From a virus, in the IMG/VR virus record IMGVR_UViG_3300008113_000570, positions 1 through 20,784 of that record: a stretch of DNA of 20,784 nt. One strand, given 5' to 3'. Below are positions 5,489-19,147 of this stretch, in pieces. Positions within the stretch are counted from its first letter, which is position 1. The number at the start of each line of letters is the position of its first letter. Below the pieces are notes generated by a model. It saw only the letters and a list, made by a program, of their open reading frames with translations. It ran no database searches and was not told where the DNA came from. The position numbers were made by a program, and so were the translations under genes.

Positions 5489-5530
5489 AAGTCCCTCTCT
5501 TCTAAATATTATTGAAGGGAGGGACTTTTT
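5489..5530 (+). terminator. Rho-independent terminator after mazG-like gene
   Basis: A 14-bp stem (5489-5502 with 5514-5527; one G-U pair, otherwise complementary) closes an 11-base loop TAAATATTATT and is followed by a short T run (5526-5530). It should end transcripts of the replication block. The 3' arm holds GGGAGGG, which is also the Shine-Dalgarno of the gene starting at 5533, and the loop holds a late-promoter octamer. Confidence 0.85.
5501..5508 (+). promoter_or_regulatory. Late-promoter octamer TCTAAATA in terminator loop
   Basis: TCTAAATA resembles the T4-type late promoter TATAAATA, which is centred at -10. A start 6 bases after its last A would fall at 5514, the first base of the terminator's 3' arm, so late RNA would lack the 5' arm and keep GGGAGGG free for translation of the 572-aa gene. 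Confidence 0.5.
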
Positions 5531-5532
5531 CT

Positions 5533-7251
5533 ATGGCAAAATTAAAAATGGGTAGCACCCCAGATTTAGCCAAAGTACATAAAAGTGGAGATCTAAAATA
5601 TTGGCCATCATTTTGGCAAATGGTAAGAGATAAACAACCATTCAAAAAAGGAACGCAAGGGCAAGATGGTGCTGCAGTAATAGGATACAAAACAGCAGCT
5701 GCCCATAAAAAATTTGTTGCGGACATGGCAAAATGTACTACTTCCAGAGAGGTCATTGCATTTTTGAATAAGTATAATACTGAAATGCCCACAGTAGAGG
5801 GTGGTAAAGTTAAGATTACTGAACTCTGGAAAGATAATGTAAAAGAAACTAAGGCATCTAATGCTGCTAAAATTGGAGGTAGAGATACAGAGGTTTATAG
5901 TGAAATATTAGTTCAATTTGCATTAGCATATCAACTTGTATATAATAAGAGAGCAACACATGATGTAGTGGGTGATGGAGATGATTTTAAAACTGAAGTA
6001 TACAATGCACTTAAATCTAGGATTATAACACCAGGTCGTTTTGCTTTTTCAAACACTGCAGTAAGAAAAAATTTAAGAGCATTCTCTAGACAAATTTCAG
6101 ATGGTAATGATACATGGTTAGATAGTGCTTCAGCAGCAGCACAAACACTAGTTGACAAATTAAATATCCCTTCTGATGCTAAAATTTTTAATGATAAAAT
6201 TTTTGGTAATGGATCCCCTGGAGATCCTTATGCAATTTATTTACGTGCTAATACAGGATTGCAACCTGATAAGTGGAACCCTGCAGATATATGGGTCATG
6301 ACCCCTGCAGGAATTAGAGATTTAGTTCATTTAAATAGAAAAACGGCAAATAGAAAAACAGCAAGTGTTGCACTTTTAAATAACTTTCTAATTAATCAAT
6401 TTAAAACAAAAGATATTATTCCTATTTCACTAAAGAAAACTAAAGCAGATCCATCACAAGTTCACTATACTGTTTTGAATAGTAATGAATATATTGAAAG
6501 AATTTCTATTGGCAAAAGTAAAAATCCTACCATTGAATTAACTGGTGGAAACCGTGATATGAAAATTAATTTTACATTAGAGACAATTGAACTGAATAAG
6601 GGTATGACAGCTCGTAGAGCACAAGCAAATTTATTTGGTAATATAGGTAAAGTTAAACCAGGATCTGAGAAGCATATTCGCATTAAATATAATGTAAATA
6701 AGAAGCAACTTGAACTTGAGTATACCCAAACACAAATGCCTTCATTAGCATTAGCAAAAATGGGATCATTGGGATCAAAATCTTTTACCTCTATTATTTC
6801 TGAAACTTCTAAGCAAGGAATTCATGCATTAGATAAAATAAAAGATAGGCATCCTCATTTAGATTTGACTAAAGATGACTACTTCATAAGTCAAAAAGTT
6901 AAATTTACTGATGAGCAATATGATCAAGTTGCTGCATATATGGATGATATTTGGAAAGCAGTTAATGGTGATAATATGCCAGACATGAGAAAGGATAAAT
7001 CTGTAGGTAAAGATATTAATTTATTGAAAGATAAAATGATGTCATCTGAAGTATCATTAGCTATAGCAGGAATACCAGATGATAAAATCAAAAGAAGAGT
7101 AATTCAAAATCTTTATAATGCATGTGCATCAGTTGGATTTGGATCTGGACTTAATAAAGAAGAAAGAGAATTACTGGCTCAAAGTGGAGTAGGTCAAGCA
7201 AACAAATTAAAAGCACAATTTACTGGAGGACTTCATGTTAAAGTCTATTGA
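5533..7251 (+). CDS. 572-aa phage protein of unknown function, possible nuclease-like core
   Basis: A 572-aa protein that I do not recognise with certainty. The start at ATG 5533 is preceded by GGGAGGG (5517-5523) in the terminator's 3' arm; upstream in-frame bases belong to that hairpin. No signal peptide or membrane segment is visible. The N-terminus is basic (MAKLKMGSTPDLAKVHKSGD). Residues around 120-150 form a helix with acidic residues (TEVYSEILVQFALAY), residues 247-255 read DKWNPADIW with Asp252, and PISLKK follows with Lys301 and Lys302. This E … PxD … xxK pattern is reminiscent of PD-(D/E)XK nucleases, with Ser299 in place of the usual acid; this is a hypothesis only. The C-terminal third is helical and charged. 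It overlaps the 69-aa gene by 17 bases. A late promoter in front suggests virion assembly, packaging or a virion-carried role. Confidence 0.8.
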   Translation: MAKLKMGSTPDLAKVHKSGDLKYWPSFWQMVRDKQPFKKGTQGQDGAAVIGYKTAAAHKKFVADMAKCTTSREVIAFLNKYNTEMPTVEGGKVKITELWKDNVKETKASNAAKIGGRDTEVYSEILVQFALAYQLVYNKRATHDVVGDGDDFKTEVYNALKSRIITPGRFAFSNTAVRKNLRAFSRQISDGNDTWLDSASAAAQTLVDKLNIPSDAKIFNDKIFGNGSPGDPYAIYLRANTGLQPDKWNPADIWVMTPAGIRDLVHLNRKTANRKTASVALLNNFLINQFKTKDIIPISLKKTKADPSQVHYTVLNSNEYIERISIGKSKNPTIELTGGNRDMKINFTLETIELNKGMTARRAQANLFGNIGKVKPGSEKHIRIKYNVNKKQLELEYTQTQMPSLALAKMGSLGSKSFTSIISETSKQGIHALDKIKDRHPHLDLTKDDYFISQKVKFTDEQYDQVAAYMDDIWKAVNGDNMPDMRKDKSVGKDINLLKDKMMSSEVSLAIAGIPDDKIKRRVIQNLYNACASVGFGSGLNKEERELLAQSGVGQANKLKAQFTGGLHVKVY

Positions 7252-7444
7252 TAATGAAGATCTAAATAAATCATTGGAGATCTTATTGAAAACCAAAAAG
7301 ATGGAAGTTGCTCTTGCTTATTTTGCTACGGTAATGGATTGTAAAATCTCAGTAGCAAAGACAAAAGCATTGAAGCATAAATATTATTTGATGAAGAAAC
7401 GTGGATTAATCCACATTGCAAACAGTAAAAATTGGGATAAATGA
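7235..7444 (+). CDS. Small basic hypothetical protein, 69 aa
   Basis: A 69-aa, lysine-rich, predominantly helical protein with no family I recognise. ATG 7235 has a strong GGAGGA 5 bases upstream, which lies in the end of the 572-aa gene; the two genes overlap by 17 bases. Its stop overlaps the next ATG as ATGA (7441-7444). The tight coupling to both neighbours suggests that it is made with the 572-aa protein and the nucleotidyltransferase and could be a partner of one of them (inference). There are no cysteine clusters or membrane segment. The central part (VALAYFATVMDCKISVAKTK) could form one amphipathic helix. Confidence 0.75.
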   Translation: MLKSIDNEDLNKSLEILLKTKKMEVALAYFATVMDCKISVAKTKALKHKYYLMKKRGLIHIANSKNWDK

Positions 7445-8625
7445 AAAGTTTTAACGAATTTCTAACTGAAGCAAAAGTCTCAAAGACTAGAGATCAGGCT
7501 GAAAAATTAAAAGTACATCATGTTGGTAGAGGAAGATATGCCAATGATATGGGTCAGATTACATATAAATCTGAAAATGGTGTACTAAAAAAACTTCAAA
7601 CTCCAATTGTTGTTACTGGACAAGATCAATCTGCTGTAGCACCTACAGGACAAGCAGCTGCCCCTGCTCAAGATCCAAATGCACCAACAGATGCTTTAGA
7701 AGTAAATGCTGGTGGTCCTACAATTACTGTTACTTTTGGTAGGTTTAATCCTCCTACTATCGGACATGAAAAATTAATCAATCAAGTTGGCAAGTTATCT
7801 CAAGGTGGAGATCTTAGAATTTATCCTAGCAGGACACAAGATCCTAAAAAGAACCCCTTAGATCCAGCAACTAAAGTTGCAATCATGAAAAAAATGTTTC
7901 CTGATTATGCTGATGCTATTCAGGATAATGAGGATATGAAAAATATCTTCGATGTTCTTTCTGCGGCATATGGGGAAGGATATGGGTCAGTTCATATTGT
8001 AGTTGGTAGTGATAGAGTTGGGGAATTTGATGCTCTTGCCAAGAAGTATAATGGTAAGATATATAACTTTGAAGAGATCCAAGTATTGTCTGCAGGTGAA
8101 AGAGATGCTGATGCAGAAGGTGTAGAAGGAATGTCAGCATCCAAGATGCGTAAAGCAGCTGCCGATAATGATTTTGATACCTTTAAAAAGGGTATGCCTA
8201 AGACTATTAATGACAGTGAAGCAAGAGGTATTATGACTACCTTGCGTAAAGCAATGAATATTAAAGAAGATTATGATTATAATCTTTGGGAGATTGCTCC
8301 TAAACTTGATTACTTAAATTTAAGAGAAAACTATTTCAAAGGTAACATCTTTGAAATTGGGACTATTGTTGAAAATATTAATACTGGTATTGTAGGTAGG
8401 ATTGTAAATCGAGGAACAAATCATGTTATCTACGTTGATGAGCATGATGAAAAGTATAGAGGTTGGCTAAAAGATCTAATTGAATTAACTGAAGGAGAAG
8501 ATCCAGAAACTCAATTAGAAGTAGGTACAGATAAGTATAGAGAGTATGTTCAGGAACTTACTCCTGGTCAACCTGTAATGAAATTTTCAGATTTCAGAAA
8601 TATAAATAATAAAAAGAAGAACTAA
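7441..8625 (+). CDS. Nucleotidyltransferase-like protein with capsid-targeting-like N-terminus
   Basis: A 394-aa protein with three recognisable parts. Residues 1-11, MKSFNEFLTEA, resemble the T4 capsid-targeting sequence MKTYQEFIAEA and contain LTE-A, a match to the gp21 protease rule (L/I-x-E). After a Gln/Ala/Pro-rich linker, residues about 94-270 form a class I nucleotidyltransferase domain: GRFNPPTIGHEKL (G100-H109; the usual HxGH reads TIGH), VVGSDRVGEF, and SASKMRKAA in place of the ISSTxxR motif. Such enzymes transfer NMP or CMP groups. The C-terminal part (about 300-345) has a small beta-rich module, IGTIVENINTGIVGRIV followed by NHVIYVDE, of a type I associate with cyanophage virion proteins. 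The start overlaps the 69-aa gene as ATGA. Packaging in the capsid is inferred; the substrate is unknown. Confidence 0.85.
   Translation: MKSFNEFLTEAKVSKTRDQAEKLKVHHVGRGRYANDMGQITYKSENGVLKKLQTPIVVTGQDQSAVAPTGQAAAPAQDPNAPTDALEVNAGGPTITVTFGRFNPPTIGHEKLINQVGKLSQGGDLRIYPSRTQDPKKNPLDPATKVAIMKKMFPDYADAIQDNEDMKNIFDVLSAAYGEGYGSVHIVVGSDRVGEFDALAKKYNGKIYNFEEIQVLSAGERDADAEGVEGMSASKMRKAAADNDFDTFKKGMPKTINDSEARGIMTTLRKAMNIKEDYDYNLWEIAPKLDYLNLRENYFKGNIFEIGTIVENINTGIVGRIVNRGTNHVIYVDEHDEKYRGWLKDLIELTEGEDPETQLEVGTDKYREYVQELTPGQPVMKFSDFRNINNKKKN
8601..8608 (+). promoter_or_regulatory. Perfect T4-type late promoter TATAAATA
   Basis: An exact TATAAATA octamer near the end of the nucleotidyltransferase gene. Transcription would start near 8614, leaving about 25 bases of leader before ATG 8640. 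No hairpin is seen here, unlike the other late promoters in this window. Confidence 0.65.
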
Positions 8626-8639
8626 TTTAGGTATCAATT

Positions 8640-9935
8640 ATGCTTAACGACATGTACTCACAATCTACTTCTAGATTGTCTGGAATTGAAGATATTCTAA
8701 ACGGTATTGGATATCTTTCTGAAGCAGAAAAAGAAAAAGAAAAAGAAGGTAAGGAAAAAGAAGAAAAATCTGAAAAGGCTGGCGAGGATCAGGAAGATAA
8801 GTATCCTAACAAGTCTGGTAAGAAGTCAAGAGACTATGATGAAGATGGCACTGTAGAAGATGAGACTGATGAGTATGCTGGTGTAAAGGATAAGGCCATT
8901 AAGAAGGCAATGAAAAAAGAAGATCTAGATTTCTCTTCAGTTCTTGATGATTTTTCTGATGAAGATATTGTATTCTTAACTGATGATCTTATTGAAGAGA
9001 TGGTAGAGGAAGCTCTAACTGAGTGCCTAGCAGAAGGTTATGAGATCGAAGATCTTGAAATGATGCTAGTTGAATCTTTAGATGAAGCAGCAAAGCAATT
9101 AGATTTATTTCAACACCAAAGACAACAGCAAAGAAAAGAAAAGGTTGCTAAGATCAAAGGTGCAGTTAAGAACTTTGCAAGTAAAGTTAAGTCTGGTGCA
9201 AAAGCTGGTGTGAAAGCAGCAGCGTCGGGTGCTAAGAAAGTTGCAGTAAAAGCAGCAGGCGCAGCAGGAGAAATCGCAGGTGCAGCTCGCGCAGGATATG
9301 CTGCAGGTAAAGCAAAGGCATCAGAGAAGCAACAGTCTTCTAGTTCATCTTCTTCTGGTAGTTCCTCATCATCGAGCAGTTCTTCATCTTCAGATAAACC
9401 AGCAAGACCTTCTTTCCTATCAAGAGTTGGTGCAAAACTTAAGAGTGGAATTAAGAAAGTTGTCGGTAAAGCAGCTAGAAAGGTTGCATCAGGTGCAGGT
9501 AAAGTTGCAAGTCGTTTAGGTGAAGAAACATTGGTAGAGAAAGCACCTCCTAGTGCTAAGCATGAGCGTATGGTTAAGCATATCAAAGATAAGTATAAGA
9601 AGGGTGGATTAACTAAAAAAGAAAAAGGTATTGCTTATGCTACTGCTTGGAAAGCATATAACAAAGAAGAAGTAGAGCATATTGAAGAAGACGGTGAGAT
9701 GCAAGGTGGCGATAAGGATCCTTGCTGGAAAGGATATCAAATGGTTGGTAAGAAAATGAAGGGCGGTAAGGAAGTTCCTAACTGTGTTCCTAAGGAAGAG
9801 TATCAAGAACTCTATCTTGATATGATCGAAGAAGGTTTCACAGTTGAGCAAGTTCGTGAAGTTATTGCTGCATACGAAGATGGACATGAAGTAATTTTTG
9901 AAGAAAGTGGCGTACAAATTTATTGTGAGGAGTGA
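8640..9935 (+). CDS. Lys/Ala-rich histone-like protein with serine tract, probable head-internal protein
   Basis: A 431-aa protein of mosaic composition. Residues about 1-30 end in GIGYLSEAEK, a possible gp21-type site (LSE-A). Residues 30-75 are Lys/Glu-rich with a DYDEDGTVEDE stretch resembling a calcium-binding loop and the phrase YAGVKDKAIKKAMKKE, of a type I associate with marine phage proteins. Residues 90-155 are acidic helices. Residues about 165-230 are Lys/Ala repeats like histone H1 or bacterial DNA-condensing proteins. Residues 233-251 are 18 Ser and one Gly. The C-terminal half has KHERMVKHIKDKY … IAYATAWKAYNKE and DPCWKGYQMVGKK … PNCVP, modules I recognise from cyanophage structural proteins. 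The ATG at 8640 has only a weak ribosome site. A role in the prohead core or in DNA compaction in the capsid is inference. Confidence 0.85.
   Translation: MLNDMYSQSTSRLSGIEDILNGIGYLSEAEKEKEKEGKEKEEKSEKAGEDQEDKYPNKSGKKSRDYDEDGTVEDETDEYAGVKDKAIKKAMKKEDLDFSSVLDDFSDEDIVFLTDDLIEEMVEEALTECLAEGYEIEDLEMMLVESLDEAAKQLDLFQHQRQQQRKEKVAKIKGAVKNFASKVKSGAKAGVKAAASGAKKVAVKAAGAAGEIAGAARAGYAAGKAKASEKQQSSSSSSSGSSSSSSSSSSSDKPARPSFLSRVGAKLKSGIKKVVGKAARKVASGAGKVASRLGEETLVEKAPPSAKHERMVKHIKDKYKKGGLTKKEKGIAYATAWKAYNKEEVEHIEEDGEMQGGDKDPCWKGYQMVGKKMKGGKEVPNCVPKEEYQELYLDMIEEGFTVEQVREVIAAYEDGHEVIFEESGVQIYCEE
9336..9392 (+). repeat. Polyserine tract (18 Ser of 19 codons) using all six codons
   Basis: Codons 233-251 of the Lys/Ala-rich protein encode seven Ser, one Gly and eleven Ser. 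TCT, TCA, TCC, TCG, AGT and AGC are all used, so the tract is not a simple DNA repeat grown by slippage; the protein sequence itself seems to be selected, probably as a flexible linker. Confidence 0.9.
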
Positions 9936-9936
9936 T

Positions 9937-11289
9937 ATGGAAAAGGATAATAACAATATTAAAACAGGAAAAAAATTAGACACAGGAAACAAAAGCACCG
10001 TGAAAATTAATCCAACTAAAGAAAGTCTCAAAGAACAAATCAGACAATCTCTAGAAGAAGATCGTGAGATGAGAAGATTGGCAGCACAAGAACGTGCTGC
10101 TGAACGAGAAAGAGAAGCAAAAAGAGCTGGTGTAAAAAGTCATACTCCAGGATTACATGCCAACTCAATTGCATCAGATTATGCAAAAAAAGAAACTAAA
10201 TCTATTAAATGGCATGACAAAAAAACCAAAGGAAAATATATTCCTGGTATGGTGAGTAATGAAGAGTTTGTAAATGAAGGTGATTATTGGCATCCAGATC
10301 CTGAGCAAGATAAAAAACTAAGTGATCGTGGTGCAAAACTTCGTGCTCGTGAAGATGCTACTTCTAAACCAAAAGAAGATCCTAAAAAACTGAAGCCAGG
10401 TGAATCCTATGTGGATTATGCTAAGCGTCATGGATATAGGTCATCAGCACCTAAAAAGCAAAGTATTGGTGATAGAATTAAAACTAAATTAGGATTAAAA
10501 AATTCTTTTGATCCAGAAGGTGAAGTATTAGAATCTGCTGTTCCTGGCAAACCTGCAGAAAGACTTGGTGCTGTAACTGCTATCCCTAAGGATGAGCGTG
10601 ATGCTGCAAGAGAAAGAACTCTTGCTAAAGCAAAAGCAGCAAGAGCAGCAAGAGAAAAGGGAATGAAGGAAGAGATTGAAATGGAAGAAGGCATGGATAT
10701 GAAGGCTTTCAAAGCAAACCGCAGAAAACTCAAGCGTAGAGAAGCTTCTGCTGATGCTAAGAAGAGAGGTCATGTAGGTAAGGAATGGTACAACAGTGGT
10801 AGAACGTATTCTCCAGATGAAGCAAAGAGTGGTCGTGCAAATATGCCCGATCATGAAAGAAGCACAAGACATCGTAGTGCTGTAGATCCTGAGGGTGAGG
10901 ATAGTAACTACTCAGCAGACAAGACGAAGAATCCTAAGAAACTTCGTAAGCAAAAAGCAATGGGTGAATCACTTTCATTCTCTGATTTTATTGCTGAGCG
11001 TAATCGTTACGAGAAAGAAACAGGTAAGGATCTTAAGACTGGTAAACCTGTAACCAAAGGTGGCACCATGGGTGGTGATGATAAGCATTCTCAAGTTATG
11101 AGACACATGCACAAAGTTATGGGTTCTGGAAGAATGGGTGCTGGTGGTGCTATCCAACAAAGAGGAAAGAAAAAGGAAAAGGGTGCTCCTACACCTGGAC
11201 CTAGTGTTACTCCTGCTCAGAAGGTTGCAAAACGTCGTGCTGCTGCTAAAGCATCACAAGATTTTATGAATGATACTAGAGGAACTTAA
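9937..11289 (+). CDS. Highly charged 450-aa phage protein, probable virion-associated
   Basis: A 450-aa, strongly basic and low-complexity protein without a recognised catalytic motif. ATG 9937 follows TGAGGAG by four bases and the previous stop by one base; the in-frame extension upstream is shadow sequence. N-terminal residues 1-90 are a charged coiled-coil-like helix rich in Arg, Glu and Ala. Later phrases such as GDYWHPDPEQDKKLSDRGAKL, KRREASADAKKRGHVGKEWYN and SNYSADKTKNPKKLRKQKA are of the kind found in cyanophage hypothetical structural proteins. Near residues 345-353, SFSDFIAER resembles the capsid-targeting peptide but lies internally, about 100 residues from the end. The gene follows the Lys/Ala-rich gene directly and probably shares its late promoter. 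Function is unknown. Confidence 0.8.
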   Translation: MEKDNNNIKTGKKLDTGNKSTVKINPTKESLKEQIRQSLEEDREMRRLAAQERAAEREREAKRAGVKSHTPGLHANSIASDYAKKETKSIKWHDKKTKGKYIPGMVSNEEFVNEGDYWHPDPEQDKKLSDRGAKLRAREDATSKPKEDPKKLKPGESYVDYAKRHGYRSSAPKKQSIGDRIKTKLGLKNSFDPEGEVLESAVPGKPAERLGAVTAIPKDERDAARERTLAKAKAARAAREKGMKEEIEMEEGMDMKAFKANRRKLKRREASADAKKRGHVGKEWYNSGRTYSPDEAKSGRANMPDHERSTRHRSAVDPEGEDSNYSADKTKNPKKLRKQKAMGESLSFSDFIAERNRYEKETGKDLKTGKPVTKGGTMGGDDKHSQVMRHMHKVMGSGRMGAGGAIQQRGKKKEKGAPTPGPSVTPAQKVAKRRAAAKASQDFMNDTRGT

Positions 11290-11291
11290 TT

Positions 11292-11299
11292 GATAAATA
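11292..11299 (+). promoter_or_regulatory. Late-promoter octamer GATAAATA
   Basis: GATAAATA in the gap between the 450-aa gene and the 59-aa gene. A start 6 bases past the octamer falls at 11305, at the very end of the 5' arm of the adjacent hairpin, so late RNA would not fold over the ribosome site of the 59-aa gene. Confidence 0.6.
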
Positions 11300-11322
11300 C
11301 CTATACCCTTTAGTATAGGTAT
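11297..11322 (+). promoter_or_regulatory. Ribosome-site-covering hairpin before the 59-aa gene
   Basis: A perfect 10-bp stem ATACCTATAC (11297-11306) with GTATAGGTAT (11313-11322) and a 6-base loop. The 3' arm holds TATAGG, the only plausible Shine-Dalgarno for ATG 11327. There is no T run, so this is a translation-blocking hairpin rather than a terminator (inference). Confidence 0.6.
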
Positions 11323-11326
11323 CATC

Positions 11327-11506
11327 ATGTCGGCACTAATCGCATGGGCTTTTGCTAACCAGGCTCTTATCGCAACTGTTCTTTTTGCAGTTTCGGAAGC
11401 ACTTGGAGCAAACCCAAAGGTAAAATCAAACGGTATTCTTTCCCTAGTTCTTATGCAAGTCCAAGCACAGCTTAAGAATAAAGGGGCAAAAGATCTAACC
11501 CCTTGA
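11327..11506 (+). CDS. 59-aa hydrophobic protein, holin-like candidate
   Basis: A 59-aa protein beginning MSALIAWAFANQALIATVL. Residues about 3-22 form one hydrophobic helix, followed by a polar turn (EALGANPKVKSNG), a second mildly hydrophobic stretch (ILSLVLMQVQAQL) and a polar end KNKGAKDLTP. It could be a small inner-membrane protein; a holin or antiholin role is possible but not shown, and I recognise no family. It sits alone between its own late promoter with hairpin and a strong terminator, so it is an independent late cassette. The start is fixed by the spacing after the hairpin; no other in-frame ATG exists nearby. Confidence 0.75.
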   Translation: MSALIAWAFANQALIATVLFAVSEALGANPKVKSNGILSLVLMQVQAQLKNKGAKDLTP

Positions 11507-11511
11507 TCCTG

Positions 11512-11535
11512 AAGGACCCCTACGGGTCCTTTTTT
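11512..11535 (+). terminator. Rho-independent terminator after the 59-aa gene
   Basis: Stem AAGGACCC (11512-11519) with GGGTCCTT (11524-11531), tetraloop CTAC, and T run 11530-11535. It begins 5 bases after the stop codon. The T run merges into the next late promoter. Confidence 0.93.
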
Positions 11536-11546
11536 ATAAATAAATA
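11535..11546 (+). promoter_or_regulatory. Late promoter, overlapping double octamer TATAAATAAATA
   Basis: TATAAATA (11535-11542), exactly the T4 late consensus, overlaps a second copy-like AATAAATA ending at 11546. The promoter starts on the last T of the terminator. The predicted start is near 11548-11552, with the GGAGA ribosome site and ATG 11576 downstream. Confidence 0.75.
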
Positions 11547-11575
11547 CAGGATATAAAAGTTTATTGGAGAATACA

Positions 11576-12184
11576 ATGTCTCTTTACGGAAGAACCGATT
11601 CAAACACAAATAAAACAAAGGCTGGTATTGGAGTTGCCGCATCATCAATTACGCCAACAATCGTCTTCGTTGATGAAACAGAAGCACAATTAAACGAGAA
11701 CCGTCAACGTGGTATTGATGGTCCAGGTTGGTGGTCGTATTATACATATGTTGATACTGATGGCAACACTCGTCATAAGTCAGAGAAGATGGTTGCCCTT
11801 GCTGACCCTGATACAAATGCTAATGAAACTCAGGCAGATGATACTATTGCAGCAGATGTAGCATCTGCAGTTACTATTACTGGTCAACCAGCAGCAGTTA
11901 CTGGAGCATCAACTCCTTACACTGGAACATTCACAGTTACGACTTCAACAACTGGTACACCTGGAACTCTCACTTATCAGTGGCAGTATCAAACTGCTTC
12001 GCAGACAACTAAGTGGACAGACATTTCAAATACAGGTGTTTATACTGGTGCTACAACAGCAACTCTTACACTTACTGCTGCTGCTAAGGCAACCTATGAT
12101 GGTTACAAGTTCCGTGTAAAGATCAATTCTGCTGGTGGTACTGAGGAAGTCATTTCTAACAGTGCGTCATTAACCTATGCATGA
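11576..12184 (+). CDS. Virion-type protein with C-terminal Ig-like domain
   Basis: A 202-aa protein. The N-terminal part (about 1-75) begins MSLYGRTDSNTNKTKAG and contains DGPGWWSYYTYVDTDGNTRHKSE, of a kind I associate with cyanophage structural proteins. Residues about 95-202 form an Ig-like beta-sandwich: TITGQPAAVTG, the LTYQWQYQT strand, a conserved Trp, GATTATLTLTAA, and a final YKFRVKINSAGG … SNSASLTYA. Ig-like domains on tailed phages usually decorate capsids or tails and bind weakly to host surfaces (as T4 Hoc is thought to do). ATG 11576 has GGAGA 5 bases upstream. The strong late promoter in front supports high late expression. Which virion part it belongs to cannot be told. Confidence 0.85.
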   Translation: MSLYGRTDSNTNKTKAGIGVAASSITPTIVFVDETEAQLNENRQRGIDGPGWWSYYTYVDTDGNTRHKSEKMVALADPDTNANETQADDTIAADVASAVTITGQPAAVTGASTPYTGTFTVTTSTTGTPGTLTYQWQYQTASQTTKWTDISNTGVYTGATTATLTLTAAAKATYDGYKFRVKINSAGGTEEVISNSASLTYA

Positions 12185-12190
12185 TAAATT

Positions 12191-12553
12191 ATGAGATTTG
12201 AGGAATTGAATGAAGACAATTATATGATGTTTGCTATTAAACATTATGATAATCCTCAGTCTGTTACTAGAGAAGACTTTGAAGAGGACATCAAAAGATT
12301 TAAATATATTAAAAGATTATTGAAAAGGTATCTAACTGGTGGTCCCCTTCGAAGTCATTTATTACTAAATCACATCATAATTTTATATAATGTTTTTGGT
12401 GAAGCGGCAACACCATTACTTTTTTATAAATTGGATAAAGAATATTGGGGATGTTTAAAAGCATTTATGGTATTCTTGAACCGTCTTCCATCAGAATCTA
12501 TGGAAGGAATTCCAGTTGATGAAGATATTGAGAATTCATTAAGAGGTATTTAA
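12191..12553 (+). CDS. Conserved T4-like phage protein of unknown function, 120 aa
   Basis: A 120-aa, mostly helical protein beginning MRFEELNEDNYMMFAIKHYD. The sequence FKYIKRLLKRYL … LLNHIIILYNVFG … KAFMVFLNRLPSE matches a pattern I recognise in T4-like phages as an uncharacterised conserved family, always small and helical. No catalytic motif is apparent. The central stretch LNHIIILYNVFGEAATPLLF is hydrophobic but contains His and Asn, and looks more like a buried helix than a membrane span. The ribosome site is poor, so translation may be coupled to the Ig-domain gene, whose stop lies 6 bases upstream. It is probably in the same late transcript. Confidence 0.85.
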   Translation: MRFEELNEDNYMMFAIKHYDNPQSVTREDFEEDIKRFKYIKRLLKRYLTGGPLRSHLLLNHIIILYNVFGEAATPLLFYKLDKEYWGCLKAFMVFLNRLPSESMEGIPVDEDIENSLRGI

Positions 12554-12554
12554 T

Positions 12555-12992
12555 ATGGAAGGTCATCCACCAACTAATAGTATTGGACCTAATCAAGGTG
12601 CTGAAGTTTCTTTACCTCCTGCAGTACAACCTGGAGTTAAATTAGTTAAAAAATTAATTAAAAGAAAAAGAATAAAGGAAGCTACCATGTTACAACAACA
12701 AAATAATCAAAAGAAACCTGTTCAATCTGCAACTGGTAGTCCCCAACCATCACCACAAGAAGTAATGGCAAAGAAGCAAGAAGCTGCTAAAGCAGCCCAA
12801 GCGCCAGCAGCTGCTCCTGCTAAAGCATCTTCTACTACACAAGCAACTGCTAAACCTTCTCCACTTCAACAGAAGGCAGCACAAGTTGCAAAGCAAGCAC
12901 TTCAAAAGAAAATTGCATTGCAGAAGCAAGCAATGGCCAATCAAATTCAACAACAGAAATTGGCAGCAAAAAATCCAGGATTGAATAATTGA
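12555..12992 (+). CDS. Low-complexity Ala/Gln/Lys/Pro-rich protein, 145 aa
   Basis: A 145-aa protein that starts two bases after the previous stop (TAA T ATG), with AGAGG as a possible ribosome site. Residues 1-45 are a short ordered-looking segment with VKLVKKLIKRKRIKE; the rest is Ala, Gln, Lys and Pro-rich and likely disordered or a long helix (KQALQKKIALQKQAMANQIQQQ). An internal ATG at 12687 has AAGGAAG upstream and could yield a shorter 101-aa form. No family is recognised. Composition resembles head-internal or linker proteins of phages. Late expression with its neighbours is inferred. Confidence 0.75.
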   Translation: MEGHPPTNSIGPNQGAEVSLPPAVQPGVKLVKKLIKRKRIKEATMLQQQNNQKKPVQSATGSPQPSPQEVMAKKQEAAKAAQAPAAAPAKASSTTQATAKPSPLQQKAAQVAKQALQKKIALQKQAMANQIQQQKLAAKNPGLNN

Positions 12993-18588: not shown

Positions 18589-19147
18589 TGCTGCTTGGAT
18601 TGAAAAGTTTCGTGCCAAACCACCCATTCCACCTATTCTTGCAGTACCATACTTCAATCAGGTTGACAACTACAGAGACGCACATAGAACATGCAACAGT
18701 TCCTCTTGTGCTATGTGTCTAGAGTTCCTTAAGCCTGGAACATTAAAAGGTGATAAAGGTGATGATGCATACGTTACGAAAGTATTTGCGATTGGTGACA
18801 CTACTGACCATGCGGTTCAGACGAAGGTTCTTGCGTCGTATGGTGTCAAGTCCCATTTCTCATACAATCTTTCTTTTGCTGATCTGGACAAGTCCCTTGC
18901 TGCTGGCAAGCCCGTGGTTATTGGCATTCTCCACAGGGGTTCTCTTTCTGCTCCTACTGGTGGACACATGTGTGTAGTCATCGGTAAGAAGGGTGATGGA
19001 TATGTTGTGAATGATCCATATGGTTCATGCAACGATGGTTACACTGGTCCTGTAACTAACGGTAAAGGTACTGTCTATAGCAAGGCAATGCTCAAAGCAC
19101 GTTGGTGTCCTGGTGGCAACGATGGCTGGGGTCGTATCTTCGACTGA
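18560..19147 (+). CDS. C39-like cysteine peptidase, probably the C-terminal half of a split enzyme
   Basis: A 195-aa reading frame carrying a papain-like C39 fold: Cys45 in HRTCNSSSCAM, His136 in GGHMCVVIG and Asp152 in VVNDPYG form a likely catalytic triad. It would cleave a peptide, most probably peptidoglycan cross-links (inference). The only reasonable ATG near the domain is 18560, inside the lysozyme frame's end and without a good ribosome site; GTG 18524 and ATGs 18533 and 18539 are alternatives. Removing one T from the TTTT at 18568-18571 would join the two frames into one 426-aa lysozyme-peptidase. The domain itself is intact. Whether it is translated separately, by +1 frameshifting, or is a broken gene cannot be decided here. 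Confidence 0.8.
   Translation: MLSFAGGATDAAWIEKFRAKPPIPPILAVPYFNQVDNYRDAHRTCNSSSCAMCLEFLKPGTLKGDKGDDAYVTKVFAIGDTTDHAVQTKVLASYGVKSHFSYNLSFADLDKSLAAGKPVVIGILHRGSLSAPTGGHMCVVIGKKGDGYVVNDPYGSCNDGYTGPVTNGKGTVYSKAMLKARWCPGGNDGWGRIFD

Follow-up and report, generated by a model that had tools for sequence, protein, structure and literature searches.

A probable T4-type capsid-targeting propeptide at the start of a cyanophage nucleotidyltransferase

The DNA analysed in this study (the window) is a complete IMG/VR virus record of 20,784 bases. The phage of origin is a T4-like cyanophage, and its nearest named relatives include S-CREM1, S-H38, P-RSM4 and P-SSM4. A 176,692-base (176.7-kb) IMG/VR contig, which matches the window without gaps at 19,131 of the 20,784 bases and encodes a protein identical to the window's nucleotidyltransferase, served as a longer stand-in (the sister contig). 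The nucleotidyltransferase gene lies in a cluster flanked by mazG and by gp61 primase/nrdA genes, with the following features:

5512-7251: 579-aa ORF (phrog_19894) that opens the cluster and lacks the tag described below
7235-7444, plus strand: 69-aa ORF without a PHROG match, its stop overlapped by the ATG of the nucleotidyltransferase (ATGA)
7376-7383, plus strand: late-promoter-like CATAAATA, similar to the late promoter of T4 and 65 nt ahead of the start codon
7441-8625, plus strand: nucleotidyltransferase ORF, 394 aa, phrog_395/T4-GC190 orthologue
7441-7473, plus strand: putative T4-type capsid-targeting propeptide MKSFNEFLTEA, with the gp21 cut predicted at the junction of codons 10 and 11
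7474-7605, plus strand: mini-domain of 44 residues (12-55) behind the tag, pLDDT 86-88 over residues 21-50
7606-7719, plus strand: linker (residues 56-93), variable in alignment A1 and of low confidence (pLDDT 33-39, residues 61-80)
7720-8253, plus strand: HxGH-type nucleotidyltransferase domain (residues 94-271) with the motif FGRFNPPTIGH
8308-8490, plus strand: C-terminal beta-rich domain (about residues 290-350), from conservation and predicted strands
8601: TATAAATA, ahead of the next cluster gene
8640-9935, plus strand: next cluster gene, with L-S-E-A at residues 26-29
9934-11289, plus strand: cluster gene (phrog_11470) with an internal tag-like FSDFIAER at residues 349-356
11564-12184, plus strand: head protein gene of the same cluster (phrog_613), with a late-type promoter at 11535

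In S-SCSM1, the equivalent cluster contains several annotated virion proteins. One of them, gp280, matches the sister-contig copy of gene 9934-11289 (tblastn, E=1e-7); gene 8640-9935 also sits at the gene-order position of gp280, a likeness of position alone. From its sequence, the L-S-E-A of the 8640-9935 product is a possible gp21 site. The place equivalent to the 579-aa ORF is likewise occupied in S-SCSM1 by annotated virion proteins.

The initial annotation called the 394-aa product a nucleotidyltransferase, and at the level of the fold this is right. The central domain was modelled confidently by AlphaFold (pLDDT around 90; 26 orthologs), and Foldseek placed it close to structures of NadD (nicotinate-nucleotide) and phosphopantetheine adenylyltransferases, with E values down to 9e-6. 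The motif FGRFNPPTxGH is nearly invariant in the orthologs, with K for R in one. The protein thus has the HxGH fold and motif in common with NadD/NadM/NadR and the phosphopantetheine adenylyltransferases, but differs from them in falling below the Pfam and NCBIfam family cut-offs. Pfam gave no match, nor did a PDB sequence-profile search, and the score against the NCBIfam NadD/NadR models was far below cut-off, so the protein is not classed as an NMN/NaMN adenylyltransferase. A role related to NAD is possible; it stays a guess, because the NAD-salvage partner NadV (PF04095) was not found in four genomes.

The first 11 codons of the ORF (ATG AAA AGT TTT AAC GAA TTT CTA ACT GAA GCA) encode MKSFNEFLTEA. 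The likeness of this N-terminus to the T4 internal-protein signal, pointed out in the initial annotation, held when the codons were read and the T4 sequences were taken from record AF158101, where IPII and IPIII both begin with MKTYQEFIAEA. The two peptides are identical at 6 of 11 positions, and four of the five mismatches are conservative (S/T, F/Y, N/Q and L/I). The aromatic positions for targeting are present as F4 and F7. The L/I-x-E-A site that had also been claimed is there as L8-T9-E10-A11, a gp21-type site (L/I-x-E plus a small residue) with a predicted cut after base 7470. Elsewhere in the protein, L/I/M-x-E-[AGS] occurs just once, as LTEG at residues 349-352, which is unconserved in alignment A1. 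In the AlphaFold model, residues 4-13 form a helix of low confidence.

Conservation was counted on 26 distinct N-terminal 11-mers from orthologs that were fetched via patterns outside the N-terminus; tag-selected sequences were excluded from both the count and the profile built from it, against circularity. K2, F7 and E10 are invariant among the 26, position 4 is always F, Y or L, and position 8 is always L or I. The conserved codons vary synonymously between orthologs; therefore it is the peptide, not the DNA, that is conserved. In S-CREM2 and S-SZBM1 the tag is kept though the sequence behind it is unlike the window protein. Amber-suppressor work on T4 assigned positions 4 and 7 to targeting and positions 8 and 10 to processing (PMC9026906), and all four are among the conserved ortholog positions (2, 4, 7, 8 and 10). 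When the ortholog profile was run over T4 60-109 kb, IPIII (12.6), IPII (12.6) and IPI (8.0) ranked first to third among 877 start codons, the next scoring -2.5. The profile under-counts, because its rigid form misses the tag of S-SZBM1_140 (MRFRQFIIEA), which is one residue shorter. The S-PM2 and P-HM1 orthologs are without the tag at their annotated starts.

The machinery that would read such a signal is encoded in the sister contig, where genes for the gp21 protease and the gp22 scaffold were found; both lie outside the 20.8-kb window. The gp23 of this contig has RGMLAEASPTN where T4 has GSFLTEAEIGG. T4 gp23 loses 65 residues, therefore its cut falls after the Glu of GSFLTEAEIGG, and the L-A-E|A site of the sister-contig gp23 matches the L-T-E|A of the nucleotidyltransferase tag. 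The promoter motif also fits late expression. In the sister contig, NATAAATA shows a coding-strand bias of 43 versus 8, and 24 of the 43 are no more than 90 nt away from an ORF start, versus 2.8 at random; the ORFs just downstream include gp22 and gp23.

The segment could instead be an uncut docking helix, through which the enzyme is packaged and stays whole in the head. A cut N-terminus is unreported in the literature consulted, and the two steps are separable in T4, where Asp at position 10 stops processing while targeting goes on (PMC9026906). This reading is nevertheless improbable, since E10 and an L or I at position 8 in 26 of 26 ortholog 11-mers reproduce the L/I-x-E rule and a site of this type is also present in the phage's gp23.

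The presence of this nucleotidyltransferase family in virions is already known, for orthologs since 2010. The T4-GC190 "citidylyltransferase" was detected in purified S-SM1 virions (Sullivan et al. 2010; PMC3037559), and S-SM1_190 begins with MKKFSAFLNEA and is 49% identical to the window protein over its full length. Mass spectrometry also found orthologs in virions of S-SCSM1 (PMC9602691), S-CREM2 (PMC10665884; three peptides, a low count) and S-SZBM1 (PMC9146016; two peptides, likewise low). These three begin with MKSFLQFLKEA, MKNFSSFLTEA and MRFRQFIIEA, respectively, so all four virion-detected orthologs are tagged, the S-SZBM1 protein by the one-residue-shorter form. S-CBWM1 is cited in the ortholog virion papers as a fifth such phage. 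For S-CREM1, the closest named relative, only 14 virion proteins were detected, and the nucleotidyltransferase is unlisted in the text of the paper. The virion-reported T4-GC190 or NMNAT-like proteins belong to the same family and gene cluster as the window protein; the available text of the four reports (PMC3037559, PMC9602691, PMC10665884 and PMC9146016) describes no targeting signal on them, and that of the ortholog virion literature gives no N-terminus of the mature virion enzyme. The tag offers the reason for the presence of these orthologs in virions.

In S-CREM2, the strict tag is found on four proteins: the nucleotidyltransferase gp154, the SAM lyase gp6 (Pfam PF23780), the kinase-like gp14, whose Pfam kinase match is weak, and gp13, of 78 aa. 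The virion table contains each of them (hypergeometric p=0.003; 0.0004 among non-structural proteins). The same table contains gp12, annotated as Cas9, which carries RFASFMAEA at residues 18-26. The Cas9 identity of gp12 was not retained, being an annotation without a Pfam match. An HMM built from alignment A1 showed that the mini-domain behind the tag is present twice in gp14 (E=5e-21) and again in gp12 (E=4e-13). In gp14 (gene at 10582-12846, minus strand), a tag-like FDQFQEHALMEGG stands ahead of the second copy, which looks like a duplication of the unit of tag and mini-domain. In S-SCSM1, gp030 has the tag, yet is unmarked as a virion protein.

These data bear on a second alternative, that the nucleotidyltransferase is one of the ordinary, plentiful proteins of infection and adheres to particles, its N-terminal peptide serving something else, for example a replication or host complex. 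Some of its neighbours are replication and nucleotide genes, and the S-CREM2 authors themselves raised the possibility that such virion proteins are carried over (PMC10665884). Against this, three groups of proteomic studies detected the protein, independently, in a total of four phages, and the S-CREM2 virion table lacks gp41, nrdA and nrdB, which are abundant replication genes from this region. The tag is also found on unrelated proteins detected in S-CREM2 virions and on the internal head proteins of T4. Mere sticking is thus very unlikely.

The frequency of the tag was examined by applying a strict regular expression to every six-frame start codon. Matches numbered one for the window, four for S-CREM2 (175 kb) and two for S-SCSM1 (229 kb), each of them at an annotated gene start; only two ORFs of the 176.7-kb sister contig bear the tag. 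A DNA pattern with 14 fixed bases gave at least 120 matches across IMG/VR. Among the matches listed, 117 of 120 open ORFs of at least 30 aa and 77 belong to the nucleotidyltransferase family by phmmer or the catalytic motif; a codon-scrambled control pattern matched 40 times in the entire collection. Across all of T4, the tag pattern hit IPII, IPIII and gene 61.1 only. Judged from these sequence counts, the tag at 7441-7473 is not a product of chance. A coincidental likeness to the T4 signal, for which it may be said that the match spans 11 residues only, is hardly credible, being already contradicted by the ortholog conservation, by the scrambled-pattern control and by an independent profile that recognises the internal proteins of T4.

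MKSFNEFLTEA is thus very probably a T4-type capsid-targeting propeptide that would lead the enzyme through docking, cutting, retention in the head and injection. The capsid-targeting reading of the initial annotation agrees with the ortholog sequences, the virion proteomics of four orthologs, the gp21/gp23 site context and the late-type promoter. By analogy with T4 we infer docking on the scaffold, cleavage after Glu10 and ejection into the host; the substrate and role of the enzyme we infer as well. The nucleotidyltransferase would be synthesised late in infection from the late promoter, and the tag segment (K2, F4 and F7) would dock it on the prohead's scaffold core, made of gp22. Cleavage by gp21 behind Glu10 (L-T-E|A) would then leave an enzyme that starts at Ala11 and would be retained in the head with the DNA. 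At ejection, the enzyme would most likely enter the cyanobacterium, so that it probably reaches the host together with the DNA. There, the HxGH enzyme, plausibly similar to an NMN/NaMN adenylyltransferase, could act before phage gene expression.

Several further observations concern other proteins that carry the tag. In the IMG/VR scan, it also opens DUF6267, DUF5661 and DUF192 proteins. DUF6267 proteins with a KWDG/KFDG ligase-like motif adjoin the nucleotidyltransferase in several cyanophages (SSM1_189, PSSM4_154 and S-PM2p141), and no such neighbour was found in the window. Some IMG/VR copies of DUF6267 (L113, L181 and L186) are themselves tagged; phrog_455 covers both domains, which suggests a nucleotidyltransferase-DUF6267 fusion in some phages. 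The second tagged protein of the sister contig is a 109-aa member of phrog_1742 (reversed contig, 65063-65392). Members of this family (105-109 aa, tag MKSYKQFLSES) are tagged in four cyanophages (the sister contig, S-CREM1, S-SCSM1 and S-SZBM1); in S-SCSM1 and S-SZBM1 their genes are close to those for the terminase and neck proteins. In T4, the hypothetical gene 61.1 (54 aa; AF158101 18966-19130, minus strand) has the tag-like start MKTFKEFIKED and continues with GDSGGNPENISIGTTSGAVVNKGPEQI, resembling the gp23 segment past the cleavage site (GDHGYNATNIAAGQTSGAVTQIGPAVM); its product may be a packaged or capsid-mimicking peptide. Two IMG/VR loci (L135:339-1253 and L203:3696-4238) show the tag followed by a segment like the N-arm of the major capsid protein, e.g., EAAPTNSVGNGGYTNASPN...GGFD, and the L135 protein also carries a DUF192 domain.

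The closest known system is the capsid-targeting sequence of T4 IPI, IPII and IPIII, described by Mullaney and Black in 1996 and reviewed in PMC9026906. These proteins share with the window tag the N-terminal 10-11 residues, the key positions and the L/I-x-E|A site, as well as gp21 and gp22 in the same genome and the virion location, which on the cyanophage side was found for orthologs. The cargo differs, being a small basic protein in T4 and a 394-aa enzyme with a mini-domain behind the tag in the cyanophage. T4 Alt, an ADP-ribosyltransferase that is packaged in the head and injected and whose propeptide is processed by gp21 (PMC9026906), resembles the proposed system in being a head-packaged enzyme; it is a different enzyme, and its N-terminal propeptide has 7 residues according to the same review. 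In the giant phage SPN3US, inner head proteins are thought to be targeted by N-terminal propeptides, but these are mostly far longer and their sequence is unlike the window tag (PMC5694885). A reading of the enzyme's N-terminus as a T4-type tag common to several enzymes was not found in the open-access literature searched, and earlier notice elsewhere is possible. What is new here is the virion detection of four of four strictly tagged S-CREM2 proteins, the sharing of the mini-domain, and the tag on DUF6267, DUF5661 and DUF192 proteins.

On balance, we lean towards the view that the T4-like phages of marine waters share a single N-terminal packaging code, the T4-type tag with or without the 44-residue mini-domain. 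By this code the head would be filled with a variable set of enzymes (nucleotidyltransferase, SAM lyase, kinase, Cas9-annotated protein, DUF6267 and others) that travel with the DNA, and the injected set could be read from the genome sequence alone. In T4 the tag is known from small internal proteins; if enzymes carry it throughout abundant marine phages, this would account for their entry into cyanophage virions, and would bear on the published doubt that virion enzymes are mere carry-over. The tag would also serve as a sequence rule by which packaged proteins of uncultured phages could be predicted. Injection of the cargo, if it occurs, points to control of host nucleotide or SAM chemistry, or of host defence, before phage transcription.
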